Position numbers and translations under genes: made by a program. This document shows, piece after piece, positions 3,013 through 29,745 of a DNA stretch of 33,287 nucleotides (within the stretch, counting starts at the first letter, position 1; the number at the start of each line of letters is the position of its first letter). Where the stretch lies: positions 1 through 33,287 of IMG/VR virus record IMGVR_UViG_3300034520_000150. The stretch is one strand, 5' to 3'. The notes beneath the pieces were generated by a model. It was given only the letters and a program-made list of their open reading frames with translations. It was not told where the DNA came from and did not search any database. The stretch comes from a virus.

Positions 3013-3891
3013 ATGACAAACAATACTTTAACTTTAGAACATATTAAGAACCTTATGAAACCGCTTCATTCAGATAACCACAACCACACACTTCTAATCA
3101 ATCCAGCCGACGGCAAGCACGCCATCAACCTTGCTATATTACGTTGGGCAGGAGGAGCAAAGCAATTAACACTCACCAAGTATGAGCTTCCACCTGATGC
3201 CTGCGGTAGAATTTACGTAGTAGATACTTTTATCGGCGACGTTGTAGGTAAGACATATACAGATTGGGCTAACAAAGTACATCGTGGAGAGTATATCTAC
3301 TCTGGTACATCACACACTAAGGGCGACTACAAGACATTCCCTCACGTGATGTTAGATTATATTGATGGAAGCAAGAAGCGTCGCCATTACAGACCTATGA
3401 TGCACACAATTATAGCTTATGTTTGCCCAGAAACCCGTGAGCAGTACGCACAGGCAGCACTTCTTGATATGAAGGAGAAGAACAGAACATTTGAAGAAGC
3501 CTGCGTACAAACTAACCACATGGATAAAGATGTACTCAATAACTCTATCTATAACTTAGAGGTTGTAACGACTGGAGAGAACGTAAGACACAGGAGCAAG
3601 ACAGTACGTGGAGTACCTTACAGTGCAATCTGCGATAGACCTATTGATGATTTTATACTTAGGGACCTTAAAGAGTTTACAGCCTGTGGTATAACAGACG
3701 CACGTAAATCATATCTTGATAAGCTCTGCCGACATCTATCGGAGTCAGACATTAGTCCAACAGCGTCAGAGCTACTTGTTAAAAGCGTAGATGGTAAGTA
3801 CGTAGTAGTACCGATTAAAGACCTTACAGCGTGGGGTATACTGACTAAGTTATTTTTAGCACAGGCTGTCTGCATTGTAGGCGTAAAGTAA
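3013..3891 (+). CDS. HNH endonuclease-like protein
   Basis: A 292-residue protein. The HNH core is visible as HYRPMMHTIIA (about 122-132) followed by TNHMDKDVLNNSIYNLEVV (about 167-185) and ENVRHR. This matches the phage/homing HNH_3 pattern N-H-x-D-x-D-x-x-N-N-x-x-x-N-L. The family uses a beta-beta-alpha metal fold to nick or cut DNA. An N-terminal region of about 100 residues and a C-terminal region of about 90 residues are unfamiliar and may recognise DNA. HNH nucleases encoded just upstream of terminase genes often take part in cos cleavage and packaging. A free-standing homing endonuclease is the alternative. Its ribosome site lies in a hairpin (2981-3004). Confidence 0.75.
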   Translation: MTNNTLTLEHIKNLMKPLHSDNHNHTLLINPADGKHAINLAILRWAGGAKQLTLTKYELPPDACGRIYVVDTFIGDVVGKTYTDWANKVHRGEYIYSGTSHTKGDYKTFPHVMLDYIDGSKKRRHYRPMMHTIIAYVCPETREQYAQAALLDMKEKNRTFEEACVQTNHMDKDVLNNSIYNLEVVTTGENVRHRSKTVRGVPYSAICDRPIDDFILRDLKEFTACGITDARKSYLDKLCRHLSESDISPTASELLVKSVDGKYVVVPIKDLTAWGILTKLFLAQAVCIVGVK

Positions 3892-4754: not shown

Positions 4755-5243
4755 ATGGCGACAAAGAAGAAAACAACTGAAACAAGTACAAAGCCTACAA
4801 AGGGACAAGTGCGTCAAGTAGTGCGTGACAAGACCCACCCCGACAACCCAGCAATGACTTTACTCAGTGACCTACGCTTACACGGTGGGATTGACTATCT
4901 TTGTGATTTTATCCGTAGCTGTAAGCTTCTAAAGATAGACGACGCAGATATTGTTCACGAATTGAAGAAGCGTTATAGCCTTTTCTTAAAGGACTTCACG
5001 GAGAATGATTTCAGGACGTGGATACGCCGTGATAGAGAAATTGAGAAAGCTTATTTTAGTGCGTATGAAGCTATTGGTGCAAAAGCCATGCACAAGATAT
5101 ATGAAAGGCTTGACGACCCAGACAAAGCCGACAACGAGTTTATTCTTACTGTTGTTGATAAGTTCGGAGCAGTTAAAGACGAAAAAGAGGCTACGACAGG
5201 CACGGCAGCAATGCTTGCAGCTATCTATAACAACTTAAAGTAG
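4755..5243 (+). CDS. terS: Terminase small subunit (putative)
   Basis: A 162-residue protein immediately before the TerL-related genes. It has a charged, disordered N-terminus (ATKKKTTETSTKPTKGQ) and then a helical region that can hold an HTH (LCDFIRSCKLLKIDDADIVHELKKRYSLFL). A second helical block (DFRTWIRRDREIEKAYFSAYEAIGAKAMHKIYERL) resembles the oligomerisation region of TerS proteins. TerS binds the packaging site and loads the large subunit onto DNA. Identification rests on gene order, size and predicted architecture, since no strong sequence motif exists for this family. A TTTTATCCG copy lies inside at 4907. The start follows GGGGGTG. Confidence 0.7.
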   Translation: MATKKKTTETSTKPTKGQVRQVVRDKTHPDNPAMTLLSDLRLHGGIDYLCDFIRSCKLLKIDDADIVHELKKRYSLFLKDFTENDFRTWIRRDREIEKAYFSAYEAIGAKAMHKIYERLDDPDKADNEFILTVVDKFGAVKDEKEATTGTAAMLAAIYNNLK

Positions 5244-5256
5244 GAGGAGATAGATT

Positions 5257-5775
5257 ATGAAGACATATAAAGTTAAAGACCTCATAGTAGAAGGCGGTTC
5301 AGAGCGTGCTAAAGCACGTGATATACTACGAGACTTTGGTGAACATTTACAGGAATTAACTACTTACACAGATGAACGTTTTCATTTTGCCTTAGTAGGT
5401 CAAACGAAAGAATCAGTTAAAAAGGATATGTGCGAGGTTTTATCAGATTTATTCGGAGAAGATTTTCGCTACGATTATTCACGCAAGACTTCTCGTGACG
5501 CAGTTTTATTCGGACATAGTCTCCACATAGTAGGACTTAAAGGTCCTCATTCTGAGGCTTATATAAGAGGACTTGCAGGAATTGCAGGCATTACACATAA
5601 TGAGGTCGACCTTTGCTCTGAGGAGCAGTTTGAACTTCTTACAAGTCGTATTAGAGGTGTCAAACTTCCGATTGCTCATAGTGCTGGGTATTTAGGCATG
5701 ACTAATCCAGATTTACATTCTACGCACTGGATTCATAAGAAAGCCGAGCAAGGTGCTATAAGGCTGATTAAGTAG
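5257..5775 (+). CDS. P-loop-less partial paralogue of the large terminase
   Basis: From residue about 43 (FALVGQTKES) to its end (KAEQGAIRLIK), this 172-residue protein aligns with residues about 56-190 of the TerL at 5787, roughly 60% identical by eye. Shared landmarks include RDAVLFGHSL, the Walker B region (HNEVDLCSEEQF against HDEVSLCSEEQF), and the coupling motif YLGMTNPD. The first 42 residues are unrelated to TerL and replace the segment with the Walker A loop. The nuclease domain is absent. It has a good ribosome site (AGGAGGAGA) and an uninterrupted frame, so it is probably expressed. It could be a degenerate duplication left in place, or a subunit that modulates packaging. It sits between terS and terL. 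Confidence 0.8.
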   Translation: MKTYKVKDLIVEGGSERAKARDILRDFGEHLQELTTYTDERFHFALVGQTKESVKKDMCEVLSDLFGEDFRYDYSRKTSRDAVLFGHSLHIVGLKGPHSEAYIRGLAGIAGITHNEVDLCSEEQFELLTSRIRGVKLPIAHSAGYLGMTNPDLHSTHWIHKKAEQGAIRLIK

Positions 5776-5786
5776 TGTGATAGACT

Positions 5787-7028
5787 ATGAAGCCATTTAC
5801 AGAAGCACACAAGAACCTTTTCAGGGGCTTAGGGAGGTATTCAGACCGTATTCTTTACGGATGCTTTGGTTGTGGTAAGACCCACACTACAATGCAAGCC
5901 TTTGGCTTATATCTGCTATTACTTAACGAGTTCACTACTAAACGGTTTAATTTCGCACTCGTCGGGCGTACACAGGTAGCAGTCAAGCGTAATATGTGCA
6001 ATGTTTTATCAGAGTTGTTTGGCTCAGACTTCAAATATGACAGCTCAAGACGCACAGGAAAGACCCGTGACGCAGTTTTATTCGGACACTCGCTGTTTAT
6101 TATAGGACTTAATGACTCAGGCTCTGAGGCTCGAATCCGTGGTCTTACAGACATCATGGGAATGGTACACGACGAGGTCAGCTTATGCTCCGAGGAGCAG
6201 TTTGATTTAATCCAAGGGAGACTTAGGGGTGCAAAGTTACCCCCGGAAGTACCTAATATATTTAGGACTGGTTGGTATCTTGGCACAACTAACCCTGATG
6301 TGCCTACGCACTGGATATTGCAAAAAGCCGAACAAGGCGTCTTTGACTTAGTTAAGTGGACCATGGACGACGCAATATGGGACGGGGCAGAAGAATATTA
6401 CGAGAAACTTATACGTACCTACAAGTCGTCTGAGGCTCTTTATAAACGCTTCGTCTTAGGCGAGTGGACAGGTAATGACCTACAGGTTTACCCGCAGTTT
6501 AACCCTAAGATGCACATAGTCAAAGCATCAGAGGTTGACATTGACTACAAGCAGATGCGTAGGACGTTTTTATCGGTAGACTACGGCAGCAATCATCCTA
6601 CGGCGATTTTGCTTATAAGCCTGTCTTACGGTGGCGAGTATATCGTAAGTCGTGAGATTAAGCTCACTACGACAGCACCTTCGGACATAGTCGCCAAGGT
6701 CAGCCTTCTTTATCAGGAGTTTGCGGGTAAAGGCATCACATTGTCACCGATGTACGTTGACCCATCTGCTGCGGCTCTAAAGGATGAGTTGCGTAAGGTA
6801 GGGATTGAGTACAGGAACGCATTTAACTCGCATAAAGACGGAATAGCAACAGTCAGGGATTATTTGGCATTAGGAAAGCTTTTAGTCTTTGACACTTGCA
6901 CAGAGCTAATCAAGGAATTTTATTCGTACCAGTTCAAGAGTGAAACATCAGATGATGTAGTAAAGCTTAATGACGACTTTGTCGACGCACTTAGGTACGG
7001 AGTACACACAGATAGTACATTATCGTAA
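5787..7028 (+). CDS. terL: Terminase large subunit
   Basis: A 413-residue packaging motor with both domains intact. The ATPase has Walker A GCFGCGKT (residues 25-32), Walker B with the acidic pair DE at 129-130 (MVHDEVSLC), and coupling motif YLGTTNPD. The RNase H-like nuclease has acidic residues in FLSVDYGSNHP (D265), MYVDPSAAAL (D325) and DDFVDALRYG (D396/D400). It cuts concatemeric or circular phage DNA and pumps it into proheads through the portal. It begins 11 bp after the partial paralogue and, unlike its neighbours, has no good Shine-Dalgarno sequence. Its translation may therefore depend on readthrough of ribosomes from that gene. Confidence 0.95.
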   Translation: MKPFTEAHKNLFRGLGRYSDRILYGCFGCGKTHTTMQAFGLYLLLLNEFTTKRFNFALVGRTQVAVKRNMCNVLSELFGSDFKYDSSRRTGKTRDAVLFGHSLFIIGLNDSGSEARIRGLTDIMGMVHDEVSLCSEEQFDLIQGRLRGAKLPPEVPNIFRTGWYLGTTNPDVPTHWILQKAEQGVFDLVKWTMDDAIWDGAEEYYEKLIRTYKSSEALYKRFVLGEWTGNDLQVYPQFNPKMHIVKASEVDIDYKQMRRTFLSVDYGSNHPTAILLISLSYGGEYIVSREIKLTTTAPSDIVAKVSLLYQEFAGKGITLSPMYVDPSAAALKDELRKVGIEYRNAFNSHKDGIATVRDYLALGKLLVFDTCTELIKEFYSYQFKSETSDDVVKLNDDFVDALRYGVHTDSTLS

Positions 7029-7040
7029 GGAGGTGAGCCG

Positions 7041-8726
7041 ATGGTAAACTTTAATGATAATATTTACAATTTACTTGAAGAAACCGACTACTCGGCGACC
7101 CCTACGGGCGTTGACGTGTGGACGGGTTCAAACCCTTTTATTGGTAGCAATAAACAGTTTCCACCACCAGCATTAGTTGAGAGGGCGAATATCAGTTACA
7201 CAAATAACAAACTTTTCGAGAATGAAATTCAAGAGGTTTTTTCCGATGTTATCAACATCTACAGAGAAATATCCCCTCTAACAGGTATGCCAATACACGA
7301 AATCATCTGCGGCTTGCCACATTTTCGCAACGTAGAGCAGTACTGGCAGGCGTTAATCGCAGGCGATACGCCGATAGTAGAGCACAGCGACAGAGAAACT
7401 TCTAAAAGACTGGCTGATGTTATAAGTAAGTCAAACTTTTCGGAGTTTATAGCAACCGAGTTATCAAGCCGTATGCGTGATGTAATCAGTGCATACTCAG
7501 TAACACCTAAAGCCGACGGAAGTATACACATCGGAAAGATTGAGGCTAAGAATTTTACTGTTTACCTGTCAGCGGAGGATGCAGGAACAGTCGAGGTTAT
7601 ACTCTTTTCTAATGTCTTCGAGGTGGCACAGCCAACGGAAGATATGAAAAAAGGCAAGTATGTGCAGTTTATAGAGTATCACAGAGACGGTCTTATAAGG
7701 GAGACTATCTGCGAGTATCGCAATAAAAAGGTAGGAGCAGTTTTATCCGAAACAGAGGAGCAAGCATACGGAGGAACACATCCTATATCACCTGTTGTAC
7801 TGTTTAAGCACAACACCGTCGGCAATCAAGTCTACGGGACAGACCAATACAGATATATGGCAAGCTCCGTAGCAGGTGCTCTCAGGTCGTTACAGAACCT
7901 TTTACGTTTAGGAGAAACACTCAGAGAGCGTCTATGGTATGGCTCTGACAAGCTAACGTCTAAAAATCCAGCTGACGGCTCAAGTACGTTTATGTTAAAT
8001 GGTTTCGCAGGTATCCCCGAGGGTATAGACCATCAAGTAATTCCCGGCTACGTAAGTCCGAAAGTTCCAATTACCGAAGCCGTAGAAGTTTTCAATAAGT
8101 GTATTAAGTCAATCGCTATGGACAGCAAGCTTGGGATGGTTTTCTTCGACATCGAGAAACTTGGAAGCAATTTATCAGCTAAGTCAATCATTGCAGCGAT
8201 GTACCCAGCACAGTTAGAGGCAAAAAGGGTAACTCAAGAGCTTAGTAGGCCTGTCATAGAAGTAGTGAGAAGAATTTACTTGGCGGCTACAGGTGAACTC
8301 CTCCGAGCTGAGGACTTGTCAATTACTTGGTTCGACGGGCTACCCGTAGACGAAAAGGAGCTTACGGAAACTATCCAAAGTCGTATTGGCGTAACGCTCA
8401 CATTAGAGCAAGCAATAAGCCGATTAGATAAGGTTTCATCTGCCGTAGCTTACGACAGAGCCAAAGAAATCAGACAACAGGAAGGTTTTATCAGCGTAGA
8501 CGACATTGTTGGTGTGGATGAAGATGTGGAGGACGATGAACCTACGACAGACGCAACTGTAAGCACTATATCCCCTATCCTTACGCAAGCTGATGATGAA
8601 ACTGTCGTAAGCGATAGACCGAAGTTTCATCAAGGGCGATTTGAACGTCCTAAACTGAGCAAGGATGGCTTTTTGGAGTGGCAGTTACCATTTATCAGAA
8701 TAAAAGGAAGGAGGGGTGAAAGATGA
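7041..8726 (+). CDS. Portal protein
   Basis: A 561-residue protein directly after terL with an AAGGAGGTG ribosome site. Size, position and features such as the long central helical region (YRYMASSVAGALRSLQNLLRLGETLRERLW) and the acidic C-terminal tail (VDDIVGVDEDVEDDE) fit the SPP1/HK97-type portal families. Portal dodecamers form the DNA entry channel at one capsid vertex and dock the terminase and the neck proteins. The last codons overlap the next gene (ATGA at 8723), indicating coupled translation with the protease/scaffold. The assignment rests mainly on context and architecture. Confidence 0.85.
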   Translation: MVNFNDNIYNLLEETDYSATPTGVDVWTGSNPFIGSNKQFPPPALVERANISYTNNKLFENEIQEVFSDVINIYREISPLTGMPIHEIICGLPHFRNVEQYWQALIAGDTPIVEHSDRETSKRLADVISKSNFSEFIATELSSRMRDVISAYSVTPKADGSIHIGKIEAKNFTVYLSAEDAGTVEVILFSNVFEVAQPTEDMKKGKYVQFIEYHRDGLIRETICEYRNKKVGAVLSETEEQAYGGTHPISPVVLFKHNTVGNQVYGTDQYRYMASSVAGALRSLQNLLRLGETLRERLWYGSDKLTSKNPADGSSTFMLNGFAGIPEGIDHQVIPGYVSPKVPITEAVEVFNKCIKSIAMDSKLGMVFFDIEKLGSNLSAKSIIAAMYPAQLEAKRVTQELSRPVIEVVRRIYLAATGELLRAEDLSITWFDGLPVDEKELTETIQSRIGVTLTLEQAISRLDKVSSAVAYDRAKEIRQQEGFISVDDIVGVDEDVEDDEPTTDATVSTISPILTQADDETVVSDRPKFHQGRFERPKLSKDGFLEWQLPFIRIKGRRGER

Positions 8727-14599: not shown

Positions 14600-15085
14600 A
14601 TGGAAAACAAAGACGTTAAAGCCTTAGTAACTCAGGCTAAGGAATATATAAAGTCATTAAATCTAAAATGGACTTTTCGCTCTATCGAATACATCGTAAA
14701 CACTGAGGGCTACACGCTCAATCAAATCAGAGGAGCTATATTTGACGTTAATGGAACGCTACAACATGACATTGAACGGTCAGCTAAGATACTTTTATCG
14801 GCAGGTCTTGTAAATCCCGCAACTGTTTCACCTGATGACTATAGAGCAGTTAAGGAGAGAGCTGCTGAAATCTGCGAGGAGTGGCGCGAGAAGTTTGGCT
14901 ACGTAGGGGTTCTCCAGATTTTATTGGTAGACCTAATGGAGAAGAAGCATTTTTTTATCGGAACGTCGGATGCAGAACTTCTGAAACACCTGCACGAGGA
15001 AGGGACGCAGACCGACCTGATAAAGACGCTAATGGCGGTAACTTTGGACAGCAAAGCACATCAGACAGAGGCATTGACATCCTAA
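14600..15085 (+). CDS. Tail assembly chaperone, short form (gpG-like)
   Basis: A 161-residue protein between the tail tube and tape measure genes, the position of lambda G. It is mostly helical (DYRAVKERAAEICEEWREKFGYVGVLQILLVDLMEKKHFF). A T-TTT-TTT slippery heptamer lies in its zero frame at 14950. Ribosomes that slip there continue in the -1 frame to give the long form. The short form would be in excess and, with the long form, coat the tape measure during tail assembly. Confidence 0.8.
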   Translation: MENKDVKALVTQAKEYIKSLNLKWTFRSIEYIVNTEGYTLNQIRGAIFDVNGTLQHDIERSAKILLSAGLVNPATVSPDDYRAVKERAAEICEEWREKFGYVGVLQILLVDLMEKKHFFIGTSDAELLKHLHEEGTQTDLIKTLMAVTLDSKAHQTEALTS

Positions 15086-15417
15086 AAGAAATACAGAATG
15101 ACCTTGAAGTGAGCCGTGAAGAGCTTGATAAAGTGAGAGAAGTGGCTGGATTAGTTGGAGTTGATTACAATACAATTCTCAACAATGATTTAAGGTTCTA
15201 TCAGTCGTTAATACGAGGTTATATGCGGCGTAGAGAGTATGCTATTAACGATAGTTTACAAGTAGGTCACGTGATAGCAGAAAAGATTGCTATGGCGGTC
15301 TGGGGCGATAAAAACTTTTTGAAGCCTATTAAGCATATTGAAATAGTAGAGCCTACACCTCGTGAAAAGCGTGCTCGACGTATTGCACATTTAAAATCTT
15401 TACTGGAAGGAGAGTAG
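14600..15417 (+). CDS. Tail assembly chaperone, -1 frameshift fusion (gpGT-like)
   Basis: The zero frame (14600-14956) joins the -1 frame (14956-15417) at slippery T-TTT-TTT. The junction peptide is EKKHFF then YRNVGCRTSETPARG. The -1 frame stays open to 15417 and adds about 153 residues, including a structured helical part (DILKEIQNDLEVSREELDKVREVAGLVGVDYNTILNN). It has no convincing start of its own: a GTG at 14881 lies inside the other frame without a ribosome site. The stop is only 5 bp before the tape measure gene. This is the well-known G/GT arrangement of siphoviruses. Confidence 0.8.
14950..14956 (+). promoter_or_regulatory. Programmed -1 frameshift site T-TTT-TTT
   Basis: A canonical X-XXY-YYZ heptamer in phase with the chaperone frame (codons CAT TTT TTT ATC). 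It overlaps a TTTTATCGG copy at 14953. No downstream pseudoknot was worked out. Confidence 0.75.
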
Positions 15418-15422
15418 ATAAA

Positions 15423-17678
15423 ATGGCTTTAATAACAGATACACGTGGAGACCAAGCGTTTGAGCAGTCTATGAAAAACGCCATTGCTCTCCTCGGCGGA
15501 CTTGAAAAGCAGGCAAGAACATCAGACAAAGCCGTCCAAGAGTTTGGTAAGACTATGGACGCTCTAAGTAAACAACTTAATAAATTCCAGAAAGATGGTG
15601 GTAAATTCACAGTTCCGAGTGTTGCTGGAAAGTCTTCAAGCAGGCAGAACGCTGACGCTCTTAAAGCGTCGGCAACACTTGATAAACTGGCAAAGCAAGG
15701 TACGGCACTGATTGGTGCGGCAGACAAAGGGCTTATTGGGCTTACAAGCACTCTTGGTGCAGCAGTGCCGGTAGTAGGTCTTGTAACTGCAAGTCTTGTT
15801 GCTATGGAGCGTGCAGGTAGAGCTGCAAACAAGCGTAATGTAGAACTTGCAAGCTCCTTCAGAACGCTTGGTATAGAACAAGACGCTGTTTTATCCGCTT
15901 CTGTTGACAGTGCAAACCGTGCGAATGAAGTATCTGTACGATGGAAAAAAGTCGGCCAAGACTTCCAGCAGGCATTTGAGCCAGTATTTGAGTTCCTTGT
16001 GAGTGCCTCTGAATGGTTAGTGGAGTTTCTGGGCTATTTATTGCCTTTGGGTAACGAAGTAAATAGCAGTTATATGGGCGGGTCGTCAAAGAATTCAAGT
16101 TATAATGACCTGTTAAAGTATTTAATTGGTTTAGAGGAGTCTAATGTTTCAACTAAGGGTGATGCAGCTGCTACAATAGCTGAAATTGTAGCAGGTGCTC
16201 GTCAACTCGGCTTTGACTTACAGTCAGCAACTAATCTTGCAGTAGGTACTTACGACGTTGCGATTAAAAAAGCTAAGGAGTTAGGGTTGACCGCCAATCA
16301 AGTGGCGAAAGACCTATCAGCGTCTTGGTTAAAAGCGTCAGAAGCTGCCGTCAAGTACGGAGTAGTTTTATCCGACAACGTCCTTGCAGGTTGGATGTCA
16401 GAACGTGGCTACGACCCAATGGTTGAAGTATCCGACGCTATGGAGGCAGCTTATCGCTATCAACTTATGCTTGAACAGCTCAACACAACAATGACACAGC
16501 AAGAAATGTCCGAGTACATCAGGCACTGGGAAGAACTTGGAGCACAGATAAACGAGGCTAAACAGACGTTATTTGAGTTTGACGAAGTTATCAACCTCAC
16601 TGCAAAAGATACGACTGTGCCTACTATTCTTGGCACTGATGGAACTTTAAGTGTAGAGCCGAGACTTGATAAACCCGCTCTCGATGAACTTTATGAGTAT
16701 ATTAAAGATAATCCTGCGTTAATGAATCTACTTCTCCTACTGCCTAGGGAAGATTTAGCATTATTCCTTGAAATAGTTAAGAACAATCCCGGACGTTTAG
16801 ACATATTGCTTGACTCTGTACCTACTGACAGTGTGCAGGCATTTAGGGATTGGATACACAAAACTGCTGCTTTGCAAAACATTAAGGTTGGGCATATTGA
16901 TACGACTTTATTAGATAACTTCCGCAGACAAGTACAGCAGATGGTTATACAGCTAAAGGTACAGCCTGTATTTACATCTTGGCAGGAAAAAGGCTCACAA
17001 GGGTACATGACTGCGGGTCAAAGTGCTATGAACCTGATAGAGGACGAACGAACTAAGTATTTAGGTACTAAGGTCAGTAGTACATCTACAACAACCCAGA
17101 CCCAGACACAGACACAGACGACAACTCAGGCTACGACTAAAACAAGTGCTGCTACGAATAGTAGGTCACAGCCACCTACGCTACAAGAAGCAGTTAAAGA
17201 AGCCTTCTATCACTTTGGTGGTAAACCTAATATCTTGGGTTTCGGTACAGGAGGTCAATATTCACAAGACAGAATAATGGCGGTTATAAACCGTACAGGA
17301 CTTCGTCAATGGAACTCTATGAGTTGGGCTGACCGTGAAAAAGAGCTTAAAAACAGTAGCTGGCTTACGACTATAACAGGAGGGTATTTTGGTTTTGCGT
17401 CTGGTGGTATAGGCACAAAAGAAATGGACGCCCGTCTTTTTGAAGGTAACAAAGCAGAGGCAGTTATACCACTTGAAACGCCAGAGGGTATCGGCTACCT
17501 CGCCAATGCAATGCAAGAGGCAGCAAGCAGAGGCACTTTATCGGGAGGTAACGAAATACACGTGCACCTTTCACAACAGGGCTTTTTTGACACTAACGAC
17601 ACGTACCTTATCAACAAGTATGCCGACAAGATTGGTAATGCAATCTTGCTAAGACTTAATCAGCGAGGAGGTGCTTAA
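15423..17678 (+). CDS. Tape measure protein
   Basis: A 751-residue protein right after the chaperone pair. It starts with helical sequence (FEQSMKNAIALLGGLEKQARTSDKAVQEFGKTMDALSK) and has a hydrophobic stretch at about residues 100-125 (GLTSTLGAAVPVVGLVTASLVAME). A low-complexity TQTQTQTQTT tract (about 557-575) precedes a C-terminal domain rich in glycine and aromatic residues (FGTGGQYSQDRIMAVINRTG). Tape measures set tail length. At the usual 0.15 nm per residue this predicts a tail of about 110 nm. No peptidase motif was recognised. It is preceded by GGAAGGAGAG. Confidence 0.9.
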   Translation: MALITDTRGDQAFEQSMKNAIALLGGLEKQARTSDKAVQEFGKTMDALSKQLNKFQKDGGKFTVPSVAGKSSSRQNADALKASATLDKLAKQGTALIGAADKGLIGLTSTLGAAVPVVGLVTASLVAMERAGRAANKRNVELASSFRTLGIEQDAVLSASVDSANRANEVSVRWKKVGQDFQQAFEPVFEFLVSASEWLVEFLGYLLPLGNEVNSSYMGGSSKNSSYNDLLKYLIGLEESNVSTKGDAAATIAEIVAGARQLGFDLQSATNLAVGTYDVAIKKAKELGLTANQVAKDLSASWLKASEAAVKYGVVLSDNVLAGWMSERGYDPMVEVSDAMEAAYRYQLMLEQLNTTMTQQEMSEYIRHWEELGAQINEAKQTLFEFDEVINLTAKDTTVPTILGTDGTLSVEPRLDKPALDELYEYIKDNPALMNLLLLLPREDLALFLEIVKNNPGRLDILLDSVPTDSVQAFRDWIHKTAALQNIKVGHIDTTLLDNFRRQVQQMVIQLKVQPVFTSWQEKGSQGYMTAGQSAMNLIEDERTKYLGTKVSSTSTTTQTQTQTQTTTQATTKTSAATNSRSQPPTLQEAVKEAFYHFGGKPNILGFGTGGQYSQDRIMAVINRTGLRQWNSMSWADREKELKNSSWLTTITGGYFGFASGGIGTKEMDARLFEGNKAEAVIPLETPEGIGYLANAMQEAASRGTLSGGNEIHVHLSQQGFFDTNDTYLINKYADKIGNAILLRLNQRGGA

Positions 17679-24292: not shown

Positions 24293-24634
24293 ATGACTAA
24301 GAAAAAGGCAATCGTAGAAACTCAGGAAGTTCAAGAGGTACAAGAGGTACAAGAGGTACAAGAGGTACAAGAGGTACAAGAGGTACAAGAGGTACAAGAG
24401 GTACAAGAGGTACAAGAGGTACAAGAGGTACAAGAGGTACAAGAGGTACAAGCTACGCTGACAATCACTCTACCTAACAGGTCAGCACTGTGGGCAGATG
24501 CCTGCACAGCGAGTGGCTACGACAATTACATCCCTGCGGGTACATATCCCGTAGCAGAAGTTAAAAATGGCTTCACTTTAATCGAGGGCAAAGGTTGGGT
24601 ACACTGTGTACCAGACGACGAAAATCAGGCGTAG
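24293..24634 (+). CDS. Protein with QEV triplet repeat tract
   Basis: A 113-residue protein. The ribosome site AAAAGGAGG is separated from the ATG by TTTTATCTG. Residues about 11-52 are 14 tandem QEV units, followed by a compact domain (LTITLPNRSALWADACTASGYDNYIPAGTYPVAEVKNGFTLIEGKGWVHCVPDD) that looks like an SH3-type small beta domain. The repeat should form an extended or helical spacer. Neighbouring fibre and endolysin genes suggest a virion surface or accessory lysis protein. The repeat length may vary between strains in steps of three residues without breaking the frame. Confidence 0.65.
   Translation: MTKKKAIVETQEVQEVQEVQEVQEVQEVQEVQEVQEVQEVQEVQEVQEVQEVQATLTITLPNRSALWADACTASGYDNYIPAGTYPVAEVKNGFTLIEGKGWVHCVPDDENQA
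24332..24448 (+). repeat. 13 perfect copies of a 9-bp minisatellite (CAAGAGGTA)
   Basis: Thirteen identical units, preceded by one diverged unit (CAGGAAGTT) and followed by CAA. Lack of any synonymous difference between units indicates recent expansion or ongoing slippage. Confidence 0.95.
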
Positions 24635-28016: not shown

Positions 28017-28035
28017 ACGAAGGACGGTGATAACA

Positions 28036-29745
28036 ATGGAAGATACAAAGAGAGCCGTTGCGTATGTGAGAGTTTCAACAGATATGCAGGTAGACGGCTA
28101 CTCTCTTGACGCTCAGAAGGCGTCGATAGAAAGATATGCAAGAGCACATGATATAGAAATTGTGAAAGTGTATAAGGACGAAGGTAGGTCTGGTAAGTCC
28201 ATCGCTGGGCGTGAAGCTTTTATCAGTATGCTTAACGATATAGAGTCTGGTGCTGTAACAGTAGATTATATAATAGTTTACAAGCTTTCCCGCTTCGGGC
28301 GTAATTCGGCCGATGTACTAAACTCTCTGCAACGGATACAACTTCATAATGTAAATTTAATCTGTGCTGATGAAGGATTAAACTCAGCACACGCCTACTC
28401 AAAGCTTATGTTAACAGTTTTATCCGCAGTAGCCGAGCTCGAGCGTGATAATATAGTAGAACAGACTATGTCTGGTCGTAAACAAAAAGCCAGTGAAGGT
28501 AAGTGGAATGGAGGTTTCCCGCCCTACGGATACGGAATAAACGAGGACGATATTTTAGTAATCAATGATAAAGAAGCAGAAGCCATACGCATTATTTATA
28601 AGAAGTACTTAGAGGGTCTTGGGTTCAACGCAATATCAAAATATCTTAAGCGTCAGGGTATAGATAAAATACCTCGCAAAAACGGAACTCTTACACAATG
28701 GAGTGCCAAGCTAATCAAAGACATCATCGACAACCCAGTATATTGCGGGAAAATCGCTTACGGACGACGTACAAAGAAAAAGAAGAAAGGTACAGACAAC
28801 GAGTACCAGACAGTAAAGCAAGTAAAGGACGCCTACATAATTGCTCAGGGAAAACATGAGCCAATTATATCTGAAGAAGATTGGATTAAAGCTCAACAAC
28901 GCAGAGAGGAAACAGGAGTAGCCTCCCCATCTTCTATCGGGCGCAACAGAGTACACCTATTATCGGGGATACTCCGCTGTCCAGAGTGTGGCGGTCCAAT
29001 GTATACCAACAAAAATGCGTGGGTGCGTAAAGACGGAACACCAGTGGAGCGCCACTATTATGTATGCTCCCGTGCCTATCACGCAAGAGGAATAGATTGC
29101 AAGTACAAGGCGAGCCTGCGAGAGGATGTTATTGAGCAAGATGTAATCAAAGCAATAAAGACTTTATCGGCAGACCAAGGCTTTGAGGATGAAGTAAAAG
29201 CCAAGATAGGTAAAACCTTTGATACAGCGGAAATTGATAAAGAGTTGACTCAGTACGAAAAAGCACTTAAACAGGCAACAGCAGTAAAAGATACATTAGA
29301 GCGTGAAATAGATACGCTACCTTACGATGCACCTCACAGAGACAGAAAGTTGCAAGACCTTAACAAGCGATTAGATAAAGCCTATGACGACCTCATCGAG
29401 GTTGAGCAACTTATAGACGACTTAAAAATGCGTCGTGCAGCAATCAGGTCTAATGCTTTATCGGTAGAGCAGATATACACTCTGCTTGAGCATTTCGACC
29501 TCCTCTTTGATAAATTAACAGCTGAGGAAAAACGACAGGTAATATCAGCATTAGTAAAAGAGGTTGAGGTTACTAAAGAGCCGTCTGGCAGAAAAAAGAG
29601 CGACATCAAGAGTCGTTTGAGGTCTATAACCTTTAATTTCCCAATATACTACGACGGTAATGTTGGCGATAAACTTTTGTGGGAAAAAGATACGCACGTT
29701 GAGTGCATAGTTCAGATAAAACGTGCTGAAAGCCGCATGAAATAA
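28036..29745 (+). CDS. int: Large serine integrase
   Basis: About 569 residues from ATG 28036; the upstream in-frame GTG at 28027 lies within the likely ribosome-site region AAGGACGGTG. The catalytic domain starts AVAYVRVSTDMQVDGYSLDAQ, with nucleophile S14 in YVRVST. It is followed by the recombinase domain (WNGGFPPYGYGI...GFNAISKYLKRQGI) and a zinc-ribbon domain with C315/C318 (LRCPECGGPM) and C344/C355. A coiled coil follows (EIDKELTQYEKALKQATAVKDTLEREIDTL). This is the phiC31/Bxb1/TP901-1 type that integrates attP into attB without a tyrosine-type core. Its place at the right end implies that attR lies just downstream. Two divergent-strand motif copies lie around its end (29713, 29802). 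Confidence 0.95.
   Translation: MEDTKRAVAYVRVSTDMQVDGYSLDAQKASIERYARAHDIEIVKVYKDEGRSGKSIAGREAFISMLNDIESGAVTVDYIIVYKLSRFGRNSADVLNSLQRIQLHNVNLICADEGLNSAHAYSKLMLTVLSAVAELERDNIVEQTMSGRKQKASEGKWNGGFPPYGYGINEDDILVINDKEAEAIRIIYKKYLEGLGFNAISKYLKRQGIDKIPRKNGTLTQWSAKLIKDIIDNPVYCGKIAYGRRTKKKKKGTDNEYQTVKQVKDAYIIAQGKHEPIISEEDWIKAQQRREETGVASPSSIGRNRVHLLSGILRCPECGGPMYTNKNAWVRKDGTPVERHYYVCSRAYHARGIDCKYKASLREDVIEQDVIKAIKTLSADQGFEDEVKAKIGKTFDTAEIDKELTQYEKALKQATAVKDTLEREIDTLPYDAPHRDRKLQDLNKRLDKAYDDLIEVEQLIDDLKMRRAAIRSNALSVEQIYTLLEHFDLLFDKLTAEEKRQVISALVKEVEVTKEPSGRKKSDIKSRLRSITFNFPIYYDGNVGDKLLWEKDTHVECIVQIKRAESRMK

Follow-up and report, generated by a model that had tools for sequence, protein, structure and literature searches.

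Partial gene duplicates arise at recombination joints of mosaic phage genomes, where a truncated copy stands beside the intact gene at a module boundary. The locus described here shares this arrangement and adds to it a repeated junction unit and an HNH gene 0.9 kb upstream of terS; it differs from such duplicates in that the truncated copy still has an open and well-started reading frame, which is probably used for coupling. Translationally coupled gene pairs, in which the downstream start lies near the upstream stop and the downstream ribosome site is weak (PMC10666635, PMC12548453), represent a second system for comparison. Here, however, an 11-nt gap replaces the overlap, and the first gene of the pair is a dead paralogue of the second. 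The presence of a short, TerL-like N-terminal ORF before the main terL ORF is also reminiscent of phage ICP1, whose spliced terL has a separate N-terminal exon (PMC10448857). In contrast to ICP1, the main terL of our locus possesses its own complete ATPase domain and no Rfam family, and thus no Rfam intron, was found in the window; a spliced terL exon is therefore ruled out. The large terminases (TerL) of the Terminase_6C / PHROG 2 family, for which the D6E TerL (5oea and related entries) is the nearest solved structure by fold, share with the truncated copy the ATPase-core sequence and predicted fold, the TNPD motif and the Walker B glutamate. Unlike them, the fragment has no usable Walker A, an asparagine in place of the Walker B aspartate and neither N-terminal helix, lid nor nuclease, and is no active terminase.

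The terminase locus and its truncated TerL paralogue

The window, i.e. the whole stretch of DNA analysed, is a virus record of 33,287 bases, in which the ORF under study lies between a gene in the terS position and a complete terL, followed by the portal gene. The terS-position gene (4755-5243, + strand, 162 aa according to the ORF list) has a strong Shine-Dalgarno sequence and ends in AAG-TAG. Pfam and PHROG searches with its product returned nothing above noise, and it is assigned as terS by position only, the relatives carrying an ORF of 159-241 aa at the same place. The complete terL (5787-7028, + strand) encodes 413 aa with the Walker A motif GCFGCGKT, the Walker B motif HDE, the TNPD motif and an RNase H-like nuclease (Terminase_6C); its product is recognised by Pfam (2.6e-7) and PHROG (9e-29), aligns with the TerLs of relatives and yields an AlphaFold model with a pLDDT of 88. 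The portal gene (7041-8726, + strand) has a strong Shine-Dalgarno sequence and weak matches to PHROG portal and SPP1_portal, and its product is 35-37% identical to the TerL-adjoining portals of four relatives. With respect to the window's proteins, the relatives L012 and L013 have a TerL of about 49% identity together with portals of 19-23% identity, while the portals of the L009-L011 group reach 35-37%; judged from these identities, TerL and portal appear to be shuffled between lineages.

Several features lie outside the terminase region. A large serine integrase (28027-29745) together with TauE/DUF1232- and Api92-like genes at the right end suggests that the record is a provirus; a second serine recombinase gene, of the invertase type, is found near the left end (950-1549, - strand). 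An ORF at 14600-15085 is followed by one in the -1 frame that stays open to 15415, and a slippery T-TTT-TTT lies in the right phase at 14950. This stretch (14600-15417) shows the classical -1 frameshift arrangement of tail-assembly chaperones and directly precedes a long gene at 15423, likely the tape measure. A small gene at 24293-24634 contains a run of about 14 EVQ repeats (EVQEVQEVQ...) and is flanked by a tail-region gene and an N-acetylmuramoyl-L-alanine amidase with SH3 domains.

The original prediction described an intact ORF of 172 aa at 5257-5775 (+ strand), adjoining the full terL and about 60% identical to TerL residues 56-190. All of this is borne out: the substitution list gives about 58% identity when gaps are counted and about 61% without them, while BLASTP, covering nearly the whole fragment length, finds 92 of 175 positions identical (53%) over TerL residues 17-190. 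The coupling motif (TNPD) is indeed retained and the nuclease missing. Walker B, in contrast, was wrongly thought to be kept, as HDE has become HNE; by the exchange of Asp129, which is invariant in all ten TerLs compared, for Asn, only the glutamate remains. The N-terminus had been regarded as different, but this is not the whole picture, as the N-terminal region is collinear with TerL from residue 17 and represents a degenerate homologue. Hereby, GCFGCGKT is replaced by GGSERAKA, in which only the first glycine and the lysine are kept and the Walker A pattern GxxxxGK[ST] no longer occurs; the catalytic changes are G30A, T32A and D129N. About 12 codons past the fragment start are missing relative to TerL, and the N-terminal helix is gone. 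At its other end the fragment stops at the position of TerL's invariant Trp191 (TAG versus TGG), so that the lid subdomain is absent along with the nuclease. All length differences between fragment and TerL are in frame. Of the properties of a functional large terminase, the fragment thus has the ATPase-core homology, while Walker A, the Walker B Asp-Glu pair and the RNase H-like nuclease are missing. Judged by these residues, the fragment is a TerL paralogue that is catalytically dead, its lost residues implying loss of the motor ATPase activity. Its AlphaFold model (pLDDT 86) matches TerL ATPase cores (D6E TerL, TMq 0.70); since this prediction rests on an alignment of working TerLs, it says little about the fragment's own stability and is not counted for function.

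A TerL ATPase-domain profile run against all ORFs found TerL in 101 of 103 loci, several of these loci having been cut from one and the same contig; only the window's own two loci contained a second TerL-like ORF. The same three-gene order was sought elsewhere and not found, making the arrangement a singleton in what was searched. No match was obtained with the fragment peptide pattern in viral contigs, with TerL single-protein patterns in viral and genome contigs, or with a degenerate DNA probe for RDAVLFGHSL and the MCP as probes. An alignment search recovered relatives with one TerL each from the viral contigs and none from the genome contigs, and phage and plasmid records contained distant full-length TerLs alone and no second fragment. 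The nearest relatives in the collections searched share about 45-50% TerL identity. A literature search for phage-encoded TerL paralogues that are truncated or dominant-negative returned nothing on point.

The duplicated junction and the origin of the fragment

The two boundaries of the fragment resemble each other. In a local alignment, the unit composed of the TerS stop, a gap with AGGAGGAG and the fragment start (5238-5275, + strand) is repeated, in degenerate form, by the fragment stop (AAGTAG), an 11-nt gap without Shine-Dalgarno sequence and the TerL start (5770-5804, + strand). The alignment score of 36 was equalled by one of 20,000 shuffles, and the match at 5770-5804 is the best among the window's 894 other ATG sites, the next best scoring 25. 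More precisely, AAGTAG..TGTGATAGACTATGAAGCCATTTACAG, which starts at the final Lys codon of the fragment and extends about 18 bases into terL, matches AAGTAGGAGGAGATAGATTATGAAGACATATAAAG at the terS end and fragment start, so that an AAGTAG-gap-ATGAAG unit is present at both starts. Judged from the aligned sequences, the fragment appears to end in the stop of terS, fused to TerL codon 190 at the short shared sequence TTAA(A)GT(A/G)G. A junction repeated at both copies is what a relic of recombination or tandem duplication should display, and because the unit is repeated, the fragment was probably truncated from birth, by out-of-register recombination or tandem duplication at the TerS-TerL junction. 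Such an event would have joined the end of terS to a terL at codon 190, whether through an exchange involving two related phages or by tandem duplication within one genome, to yield the order TerS - TerL(1-190) - TerL(complete). While the duplicated junction itself is evident, the event and its direction are our reconstruction, in which a terS-derived stop codon and gap would have been placed behind the truncated copy. This copy would subsequently have lost Walker A, the Walker B Asp and the N-terminal helix.

An HNH-type endonuclease gene is located at 3013-3891, approximately 0.9 kb upstream of the terS-position gene. Nuclease genes such as HNH often mark exchange boundaries at such places, and exchange boundaries near terminase genes have been discussed as nuclease-flanked exchange, not as a truncated-copy structure (PMC10448857).

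A tree built from the shared core groups the fragment with TerL at 99% bootstrap support, on branches of 0.62 (fragment) and 0.15 (TerL) substitutions per site. Synonymous differences between the two are near saturation (dS about 2), the same codon being used at 39 of 87 shared residues versus 31 expected at saturation; the separation is thus old. With a GC3 of 0.277, the lowest among the 36 genes examined, the fragment is compatible with a different (foreign) parent as well as with relaxed codon use. Within these otherwise synonymously near-saturated sequences, an exact match of 23 nt (approximately 5498-5520 and 6067-6089; p about 0.002) is a possible trace of local gene conversion between both copies.

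Ribosome sites and probable translational coupling to terL

The claim that the fragment has a better ribosome site than terL agrees with the predicted Shine-Dalgarno energies, which amount to -10.2 kcal/mol for the fragment (AGGAGGAG) and -3.4 kcal/mol for terL. Among 25 late genes, terL is the sole one without a Shine-Dalgarno sequence, the other 24 lying at or below -10.2 kcal/mol if the most favourable start in the vicinity is used, and no alternative terL start was found in a usable place. For the fragment, no promoter signal above that of shuffled sequences was detected. Because terL is devoid of its own site, its ribosomes probably come from the fragment. By sequence prediction, the pair shows what is expected of a leader and its gene, namely a strong upstream site and a downstream gene without one, and the fragment occupies the place beside terL that usually belongs to terS. 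In relatives, TerL usually abuts or overlaps TerS, with a spacing of -14 to +2 nt in five of seven, while two have a 62-nt gap before TerL; the TerL site is the weakest of the terS, terL and portal sites in most of the seven, L022 with its strong TerL site being the clear exception.

Between the fragment stop and the TerL start lie 11 nt, a spacing at which the efficiency of coupling varies by gene (PMC10666635). Coupling at 11-14 nt is far weaker than at an overlap: measured values are down by 40-80% at 13-14 nt, where part of the reinitiation persists in E. coli and Haloferax, and almost none is left beyond about 20 nt (PMC10666635). The 11-nt gap is thus compatible with partial coupling, without proving it. 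Judged from the ribosome sites, the fragment is probably coupled to terL, whereby ribosomes that finish the fragment would reinitiate at the terL start 11 nt downstream. Reinitiation of this kind would preserve an open frame in the fragment, clear of stops and frameshifts, even if the peptide did nothing. Coupling thereby explains the intact frame, the strong fragment site and the missing terL site together, and no peptide function is needed. For this reason, the argument that an intact frame and a good ribosome site indicate a functional protein fails, since a terL that needs the upstream ORF to be translated would account for both. Of the three roles offered in the original prediction, that of a translational leader for terL is best supported, by the missing Shine-Dalgarno sequence of terL and by relatives, in which TerL usually abuts or overlaps TerS and has the weakest site.

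We therefore consider it about an even bet that the fragment is a recombination-scar fossil of terL, kept open by relaying ribosomes to terL, with no need for a role of the peptide. Several observations speak against this explanation, i.e. the weakness of coupling at 11-14 nt, the 62-nt gap of two relatives and the strong TerL site of another, as well as the rejection of neutrality along the whole fragment branch and the avoidance of conserved sites by fragment changes described below. Moreover, an origin by tandem duplication would turn the observed constraint into protein-level selection.

Selection on the fragment and alternative explanations

Between fragment and TerL, pairwise dN/dS amounts to about 0.19 for the core, whereas the 26 codons surrounding the P-loop give about 0.7. 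The earlier suggestion that the fragment is not simply decaying stands insofar as codon models reject simple neutral decay along its whole branch (2 delta lnL of 8.9 in the core and 9-16 in other settings). It does not stand against a TerL-like past followed by drift, since a two-phase branch, which starts out TerL-like and is neutral over its last 0.15-0.35 substitutions per codon, does as well as a free omega; all omega values are rough, as branch lengths hit their bounds with synonymous sites near saturation. Fragment-specific changes shun conserved sites (9/51 versus 15/30, p = 0.005). Of 29 columns invariant in ten TerLs, the fragment loses seven, catalytic ones included, compared to 0-3, in one case 6, when functional TerLs are left out in turn. 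According to these models, the fragment sequence is one that was constrained for most of its separate history, as TerL or as fragment, the past as TerL and the time as fragment being inseparable in an analysis of a single fragment sequence. A TerL-like past accounts for this constraint equally well, and hence we do not claim protein-level selection.

The same two-phase history gives some weight to a plain vestige, a recombination relic without any role that was recently truncated and is drifting, with terL translated unaided and the open frame a matter of luck. This explanation, which we regard as possible but doubtful, profits from a model that fits as well as any, from a probability of about 0.31-0.07 that 172 codons stay free of stops (frameshifts uncounted), and from the lack of the fragment in every relative. 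It would, however, leave terL as the sole late gene with neither a ribosome site nor a coupling partner, and it would be odd for a relic to have a perfect site while the essential gene next to it has none. All length differences from TerL are, moreover, in frame.

If the fragment arose by tandem duplication, truncated from the start, the constraint would be on the fragment itself, which is the main reason why a protein-level role keeps some probability. In such a role, the dead TerL core would act as a pseudo-ATPase that tunes the phage's own packaging, be it by entering or capping the packaging ring or by binding to TerS or portal. The rejection of whole-branch neutrality, the core dN/dS of about 0.19, the concentration of changes at variable sites, the confident fold prediction and a P-loop more diverged than the core would all suit such a protein, and a mixed ring is not absurd given that the T4 motor tolerates inactive subunits (PMC8589836). 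Yet the constraint is equally expected from a TerL that worked for most of its separate history, and the fold prediction is based on an alignment of working TerLs. In addition, the lid and nuclease, which bear much of a TerL's contacts, are missing, a Walker A mutant poisons the lambda motor (PMC8589836), and no second case occurs in 101 loci. We thus consider a pseudo-ATPase of this kind unlikely. The more specific proposal of a dead half-TerL kept as a dedicated regulatory motor subunit in the same operon, with coupling fixing the ratio of dead to live subunits, appears less likely still. Neither the regulatory subunit nor the decoy of the original prediction has gained positive evidence, the ATP site being destroyed, the lid absent and no relative possessing such a gene.

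A decoy that poisons the terminase of a competing phage, in the manner of a prophage-borne packaging-interference gene, is highly improbable. Dead subunits do lower packaging in T4 and abolish it in lambda (PMC8589836), and the low GC3 resembles that of accessory genes. Against this, the fragment has terS and terL as its neighbours within the late operon and no own promoter above chance, so that its synthesis would accompany that of the phage's own motor, its closest match; it also lacks the lid, and no other phage has it. Similarly remote is an assembly chimera in which the terS side and the terL side come from two different phages, for although the single metagenomic record, the low fragment GC3 and the 23-nt exact stretch common to both copies would fit, a cut terL would keep the N-terminus, P-loop and Walker B Asp that the fragment lacks, and the junction is a clean stop with a homologous gap.

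If a protein-level role were true, the fragment would be a natural dead-subunit partner of a packaging motor, of which we know no earlier example. The locus also calls for caution, as a small protein encoded next to an essential gene should not be taken to work on the grounds that its frame is intact and its ribosome site strong. In conclusion, with the relay of ribosomes to terL as the favoured explanation, the locus offers a worked case of a phage operon repairing itself around a recombination scar, in which an essential gene, devoid of a ribosome site of its own, seems to rely on its dead copy's reading frame.
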